This document shows, piece after piece, positions 32,474 through 33,154 of a stretch of DNA of 33,154 bases. The stretch is taken from assembly GCA_913054335.1 (NCBI GenBank), contig CAJXHL010000012.1, forward strand, positions 1-33,154. The letters are read 5' to 3'. The stretch is from an uncultured Gammaproteobacteria bacterium. Its GTDB lineage: Bacteria; Pseudomonadota; Gammaproteobacteria; PS1; Pseudothioglobaceae. Position 1 is the first letter of the stretch. Every line of letters begins with the position of its first letter. Below the pieces are notes generated by a model. That model was not told the DNA's origin, did not search any database, and saw only the letters and a list, made by a program, of their open reading frames with translations. The position numbers and the translations under genes are program-made.

Positions 32474-32549
32474 GGGCGCTTAGCTCAGTTGGGAGAGCAT
32501 CGCCCTTACAAGGCGAGGGTCACAAGTTCAAGTCTTGTAGCGCCCACCA
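32474..32549 (+). tRNA. tRNA-Val (anticodon UAC)
   Basis: 76 nt. Acceptor GGGCGCT pairs with AGCGCCC; D arm GCTC/GAGC; anticodon stem TCGCC/GGCGA with loop CTTACAA (TAC); T arm ACAAG-TTCAAGT-CTTGT; CCA encoded. All arms pair fully. Confidence 0.97.
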
Positions 32550-32556
32550 AATAATT

Positions 32557-32633
32557 GGAGCGGTAGTTCAGTTGGTTAGAACGCCTGCCTGTCACGCAGG
32601 AGGTCGCGGGTTCGACCCCCGTCCGCTCCGCCA
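32557..32633 (+). tRNA. tRNA-Asp (anticodon GUC)
   Basis: 77 nt. Acceptor GGAGCGG pairs with CCGCTCC; D arm GTTC/GAAC; anticodon stem CCTGC/GCAGG with loop CTGTCAC (GTC); T arm GCGGG-TTCGACC-CCCGT; CCA encoded. Lies seven bases after tRNA-Val, so probably one transcript. An integrase begins 176 bp downstream. Confidence 0.97.
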
Positions 32634-32650
32634 ATACACTGTTTAACACT

Positions 32651-32735
32651 ATTCGTTGGTGTTCGTTAACAACCACCCAAGCCCTTGCTACAGCAGGGGT
32701 TTAGTCGGTTTTACGATTCGTTATCGTTCGTTAAC
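32651..32735 (+). repeat. Imperfect 20-bp direct repeat downstream of tRNA-Asp
   Basis: ATTCGTTGGTGTTCGTTAAC (32651-32670) and ATTCGTTATCGTTCGTTAAC (32716-32735) differ at three bases and are spaced by 65 bp. Between tRNA and integrase, this looks like recombinase or excisionase binding sites. A small hairpin, CCCTTGC/GCAGGGG (32682-32699), lies between the copies and lacks a T tract. Confidence 0.6.
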
Positions 32736-32760
32736 CTTCGTCACCAGCTTGCATTCTATT

Positions 32761-33089
32761 GGGAACAAAAGTACAATTGTTCCCATTCAATAAAAAATTG
32801 TTCCCATTTATGTTGACCGATATTAAGATAAGACAGGCTAAAGCACGTACCACAGCACACAAACTACACGATGACCAAGGTTTATACCTGCGTGTAAGCC
32901 CATTAAAGAAAGACAAGAAGGCAACACCAACCAAGACATTTGTTTTTCGATACAAATGGTTAGATAAAGACACGACTATTAATATTGGCAGGTACGGACA
33001 ATGCTCTTTGTCTGATGCGAGGCGCAAGAGAGATGAATATATTGACCAGCTTTTATCTGGGAACAATCCAGCAGAGGATAAATGTTCCC
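32761..33089 (+). repeat. Five TTGTTCCC boxes around the integrase start
   Basis: GGGAACAA at 32761-32768, TTGTTCCC at 32777-32784 and 32798-32805, GGGAACAA at 33059-33066, and ATGTTCCC at 33082-33089. The second and third share AATTGTTCCCATT (13 bp), and the first two form an inverted pair. They flank the integrase start, so they may be arm-type integrase sites or an operator. Confidence 0.6.
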
Positions 33090-33154
33090 AAAGTTTTTCA
33101 GAAATGGCCGCTAAACCACGTGCTCGTGACTTAGGTCTGCCATTTTGTGGATAT
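32810..33154 (+). CDS. N-terminal part of a P4-type tyrosine recombinase (integrase), cut by the window end
   Basis: 115 codons are present, open at the right edge. The N-terminal arm-binding domain (DUF4102 type) is clear: LTDIKIRQAKART, HDDQGLYLRVSP, KTFVFRYKWLDKDTTINIGRYGQ split as TFVFRYKW and INIGRYG, LSDARRKRDEY and GNNPAED. These enzymes insert islands and prophages at tRNA genes. It faces away from tRNA-Asp, as at the attL end of many islands. The last 17 or so residues (AAKPRARDLGLPFCGY) do not look like the expected core-binding helix, so the gene may be altered or the sequence chimeric near its end. No good ribosome site is seen. The catalytic domain is outside the window. Confidence 0.85.
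   Translation, partial: MLTDIKIRQAKARTTAHKLHDDQGLYLRVSPLKKDKKATPTKTFVFRYKWLDKDTTINIGRYGQCSLSDARRKRDEYIDQLLSGNNPAEDKCSQSFSEMAAKPRARDLGLPFCGY

Follow-up and report, generated by a model that had tools for sequence, protein, structure and literature searches.

Does the right-hand end of this contig, where an integrase gene follows a tRNA-Asp gene and then runs off the assembly, mark the edge of an integrated element, and is that integrase still whole? The window, by which we mean the entire stretch of 33,154 bp that was analyzed, coincides with one whole contig (G000:C12), so that its sequence cannot be carried further; the genome comprises 1.70 Mb on 104 contigs and belongs to a family that resembles Thioglobaceae/SUP05. 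Near its right end, a thioredoxin-like gene and an HU-like gene, recognized by eye, lie upstream of two tRNA genes identified with ARAGORN on the forward strand, tRNA-Val (32474 to 32549) and an intact tRNA-Asp(GTC) (32557 to 32633). The gene names used here (ppiD, hupB, thioredoxin-like, phnDCE-like, and XerC/D) were assigned by eye and should be taken as our presumptive labels. A sequence-only reading of this DNA had described a P4-type integrase 176 bp past tRNA-Asp and reading away from it, and this description was confirmed: the frame starts at an ATG at 32810 on the same strand and has no stop before the contig runs out at 33154, and its Arm-DNA-bind_3 domain (PF13356) was detected far beyond chance (E value of 7.8e-20; 71.2 bits versus a cutoff of 27).

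We compared the site with 29 relative loci that carry tRNA-Asp, drawn from 28 genomes; 23 of these loci reach ppiD. In those 23, the distance from the end of tRNA-Asp to the start of ppiD ranged from 15 bp (in G015 and also on contig C42 of G018) to 19,654 bp (in G028). The two genomes that best matched the stretch from hupB to the tRNA (G001 and G020; 92% each) have empty sites, with ppiD 230 and 229 bp after tRNA-Asp, respectively. The window DNA beyond the tRNA (32634 to 33154) had no DNA match in any of the 28 other genomes of the genus, 10 of which are at least 90% complete. Together with copies of the tRNA-Asp 3′ end in three relatives (see below), these comparisons with relatives lacking the insertion support an insertion at tRNA-Asp, as had been proposed from the letters alone. 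Because the closest relatives are without the insert, a recent arrival is suggested. Base composition was considered as a sign of foreign origin and was set aside, since the GC content of the element (0.40) hardly departs from that of the backbone (0.415).

The interval between tRNA-Asp and ppiD is best described as an insertion hotspot of the genus: some genomes have an empty site there, the window has an integrase that looks broken, and still other genomes have tRNA-bounded inserts in which no integrase was detected. Two further loci are worth recording. Two contigs of G018 (C2, locus L057, and C42, locus L058) each carry a tRNA-Asp; in one case the tRNA has a single mismatch and is followed by other genes, and in the other ppiD comes directly after it. 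The pair may represent the site in its filled and empty states, or two copies. In G002 (L061), contig C16 breaks off at its start exactly at the final base of tRNA-Asp.

We presume that the 3′ end of tRNA-Asp is the attachment core, here on the attL side. The sequence CCCGTCCGCTCCGCCA has a single match in the window, where 0 are expected, and, with up to two mismatches allowed, a single match in the whole genome, with no second tRNA-Asp 3′ end and no attR copy. The second copy that had been predicted to the right was therefore not recovered from this genome. It is important to note that the assembly is broken at both edges of the insert, with contig ends on the tRNA-Asp side and on the ppiD side, and because of these breaks the missing copy does not refute the insertion. 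Nor do the core genes stop here in a biological sense, as had been stated: ppiD opens contig C33 of the same genome, exactly from its ATG. The start of that contig at the ppiD start codon (G000:C33:1, L104) perhaps indicates that strains differ just upstream.

In 3 of the 29 relative loci, a copy of the tRNA-Asp 3′ end, flush with the last tRNA base, lies inside the gap: 15 nucleotides about 4.0 kb on in G019 (L065), 14 nucleotides 3.9 kb on in G026 (L075), and 14 nucleotides 14.6 kb on in G028 (L067). A fourth relative (G031) has a longer partial tRNA copy near tRNA-Asp, and the other 25 loci, some of them on short contigs or at empty sites, showed no exact same-strand repeat of at least 10 nucleotides. 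When the integrase profile was run over all frames of 30 regions, the window included, it matched nowhere except in the window and in a remnant of 22 codons in G028 (E value of 0.082). A Pfam scan of open reading frames (ORFs) of at least 60 amino acids covered 4 of the 5 in the G019 insert, all 6 in the G026 insert, and 10 of the 17 in the G028 insert and detected no integrase in any of them; the remaining 1 (G019) and 7 (G028), mostly small, lay outside the scan. By these sequence searches, the tRNA-bounded inserts of G019, G026, and G028 appear to be without an integrase. The cargo of the G028 insert includes a DUF2779 protein, a DNA-ligase-like protein, and repeat proteins.

These inserts also bear on whether the element whose left edge the window shows is a prophage or phage satellite rather than a cargo island, which we regard as very unlikely. 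In favor of such an origin, relatives of the integrase, at 36 to 42% identity, occur in 17 viral contigs. However, two patterns of the element had no exact match in viral contigs, no phage family scored above the Pfam cutoff in the 20 scanned ORFs of the three tRNA-bounded inserts, and the first gene after the integrase resembles a peptidase.

Between tRNA-Asp and the integrase, the 176-bp region (32634 to 32809) is the presumed attL arm and integrase promoter region. Repeat searches identified two arm-type-like direct repeat copies on the forward strand, 23 bp long and 83% identical (32648 to 32670 and 32713 to 32735), the first with TTCGTT twice within it; across the 177 bp that follow the tRNA, this 6-mer is not significantly overrepresented (P of about 0.11). 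A terminator-like hairpin with a weak T run lies between the two repeats (32679 to 32702, forward strand, from a pattern scan), and the number of terminator-like sites in the stretch (3 versus 1.4 [standard deviation, 1.3] in shuffles) is not significant alone. Positions 32630 to 32760 are predicted to fold with a z score of −4.1, and none of 200 shuffles was equally stable. No sigma-70-like promoter was found on the forward strand of the region between the tRNA and the integrase.

Just before the integrase ATG ends an operator-like triple (32760 to 32806), consisting of inverted and direct copies in the order TGGGAACAA, TTGTTCCCA, and TTGTTCCCA. An exact triple was present in 3 of the 28 regions scanned (the window, G028, and G026); at a length of 9, one arose in 0 of 2,000 dinucleotide shuffles of each, and at a length of 8, one arose in 3 of 2,000 for G026. 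In G028, a single-contig genome, the triple precedes the 22-codon integrase remnant, and in G026, no integrase follows it. With one mismatch allowed, the layout was found upstream at 1 of the 16 other integrase loci of the genus (L117), and two A+T-rich matches also appeared in G001 and G020, whose sites are empty. We infer that the repeats are operators controlled by the integrase. Visual inspection showed, upstream of 10 of 16 integrase starts (in L112 to L118 and L120 to L122), short repeats that vary in sequence and whose final copy, an inverted one, immediately precedes the integrase ATG.

The integrase itself is probably not intact. Alignment to full-length integrases and the PF13356 match assign 98 codons (32810 to 33103, forward strand), without a stop or frameshift, to the 5′ portion of a gene for a P4-type tyrosine integrase, and the likeness extends to about SFSEMA, at the start of the core-binding domain. 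From an ATG at 33104 the same frame continues into what is probably the start of a P1/S58 (DmpA-like) peptidase, MAAKPRARDLGLPFCGY, of which 17 codons (33104 to 33154, forward strand) are present before the contig end cuts it. The earlier identification of a P4-type integrase is thus upheld for the arm domain and these 98 codons and has to be qualified for the last 51 bp, which are peptidase-like. Tyrosine integrases carry the catalytic residues R-H-R-Y; the core-binding and catalytic domains are not within the contig, which ends 51 bp after the join. Elsewhere in the genome, PF00589 was found only in two frames of 295 and 312 amino acids, which we take to be XerC/D, and no integrase remainder was found. 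A close homologue of the integrase was likewise absent, at a threshold of 1e-13, from the 368 other genomes of the class that were searched.

The peptidase assignment was examined with a 24-residue tail, which had no match in Pfam or NCBIfam. In a phmmer search, 15 of its residues aligned with PDB 1b65 at an E value of 0.043, the only PDB match up to an E value of 10; we take this entry to be the aminopeptidase named DmpA. A tblastn search of plasmids returned 13 records (E values of 0.2 to 6), and among the 12 listed, 10 are annotated as P1 family peptidases and 2 are unannotated. The resemblance to DmpA lies in KPRARDLGLPF at the N terminus; the window shows just 17 residues, which continue the reading frame of an integrase fragment, and the individual E values are weak. 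Searches of the window's own genome and of 83 genomes of the family (its own included) detected no S58 peptidase, and because of this absence the tail may be chimeric.

The join at 33104 is therefore to be read in one of two ways, either as a real truncation and fusion or as a chimeric contig end. Under the latter, the island would be an ordinary one with an intact integrase, and the last 51 bp would be a chimeric end with foreign peptidase DNA, perhaps attached via a few shared bases at ATGGC. We consider this somewhat unlikely, although the join lies only 51 bp from the contig end, the family genomes searched lack the peptidase, and poor ends do exist in such assemblies, as at G103:C47, which ends in an adapter-like sequence. 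Against it, the join is in frame and falls at an apparent S58 start codon, the stretch matches nowhere else in the genome, and a similar fusion lies well within a long contig of G008.

This second fusion (L109; G008:C5, 8973 to 10338) is a 376-amino-acid frame that follows tRNA-Leu(CAA) inside an 84-kb contig. Residues 7 to 102 form the arm domain, and a nucleotidyltransferase domain starts at residue 127. Codons 106 to 135 are without ATG, GTG, or TTG, and the cargo domain would therefore need to be translated from the integrase start. The ORFs after the fusion resemble, by eye, a phosphonate-type ABC transporter.

To place these two cases, we surveyed arm-domain frames across the family. Besides the window, there are 14 PF13356 frames shorter than 350 amino acids in 13 stretches, of which 11 stretches were examined (L156 and L158 were left out); none contained a fusion with a recognizable cargo protein, and frameshifts, fragments, or contig-end cuts were found instead. 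Long frames were covered in the genus only, where 15 frames of 403 to 432 amino acids were compared, 9 of them aligned through the core and 6 by their first 50 residues. A 115-amino-acid frame from Rhodocyclaceae (L019) was considered as a third fusion and rejected because the integrase carries on in another frame. On the sequences covered, then, the candidate fusions number two, the window (at a contig end) and G008. No description of a truncated integrase fused to cargo appeared among the titles of the best literature matches, which we do not present as a claim that such fusions are unpublished.

The survey yielded two side observations. Among the 26 family stretches around PF13356 frames that were scanned for tRNAs, 9 contained a tmRNA (L112, L114 to L118, L120, L146, and L147), making it commoner than any single tRNA, and some of the integrases there are cut or frameshifted. 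In L146 (G103:C47:1-6000), the integrase frame ends at the contig end in an adapter-like peptide, presumably derived from a sequencing adapter, and this contig end is probably an artifact.

Alternatively, the window may hold the attL relic of a long-decayed element, with the integrase a fossil, the peptidase brought in separately by homologous recombination or deletion, and no bounded island. Frameshifted or partial arm-domain frames are indeed frequent in the 11 family stretches examined, G028 retains only 22 integrase codons, and the G008 tRNA-Leu has no repeat of at least 10 nucleotides up to L109:15000. We nevertheless judge a relic to be unlikely: the 98 codons are without a stop or frameshift, the operator-like repeats are exact copies, and the closest relatives are without the insert, which speaks for a recent arrival.

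The explanation that we favor, and consider likely, is that the window shows the tRNA-proximal edge (attL) of an integrative element that entered at the tRNA-Asp 3′ end, between tRNA-Asp and ppiD, and whose integrase has since been cut and joined to a peptidase cargo gene; within it, the cut and fusion are held with less certainty than the insertion. By analogy with known systems, the integrase would have recombined a tRNA 3′-end copy borne by the element with the chromosome, thereby restoring tRNA-Asp, and, again judging from such systems, may have repressed its own promoter via sites in the 176-bp region. A deletion would then have removed the integrase from the beginning of the core-binding domain onward and placed what was left in frame with the P1/S58 peptidase, the first cargo gene. 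The element would afterward have been unable to move itself, being either a locked island or dependent on another element. If the fusion is real, it would show how a mobile element could, in a simple way, become locked in while its first cargo gene takes over the expression signals of the integrase. A far bolder generalization would be that islands at tRNA genes in this genus have lost the catalytic half of the integrase, with its DNA-binding arm domain fused in frame to the first cargo gene; the cargo would then be translated from the integrase start and come under self-repression of the integrase type at the attL region, and the element would rely on the integrases of other elements for movement. 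We consider this generalization highly improbable.

Several described systems share parts of this arrangement. Like the tRNA-integrated genomic islands covered by Islander (PMC4383910), the locus has an intact tRNA, an adjoining tyrosine integrase, a variable site content, and an empty site in relatives; unlike them, it has a partial integrase, and a search of the window's genome did not recover the displaced tRNA fragment expected at the far end. The KplE1 study (PMC2951348) predicts that integrase genes in a tRNA-first orientation are self-repressed, shows this for several, and gives mean spacings of 208 to 228 for predicted autoregulated tRNA-integrase pairs and about 158 for others. The window has the same orientation as the STI-type pair, intS of KplE1, with the tRNA before the integrase, and its arm-like and operator-like intergenic repeats would likewise make attL and the promoter region overlap (PMC2951348). 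It differs in that its repeats are its own and in that its 176 bp fall between the two sets of means (PMC2951348).

A CIME is defined as an element without integration and transfer genes that has kept attL and attR (PMC5704250). The inserts of G019, G026, and G028, which are tRNA-bounded and in which an integrase was not found, resemble this definition, as does the seemingly truncated integrase of the window; the window keeps attL, whereas attR was not seen in its genome, and those three inserts fit better (PMC5704250). Tycheposons, reported for Methylophilaceae (PMC10872708), are similar in that they bring cargo to tRNA genes of streamlined aquatic bacteria and have a tyrosine recombinase. 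The window differs in its tRNA-Asp and P4-type arm domain. Overall, the layout at tRNA-Asp is of a well-known kind, and the sole unusual point is the apparently truncated and fused integrase, for which there are two examples, the one in the window lying at the end of its contig.
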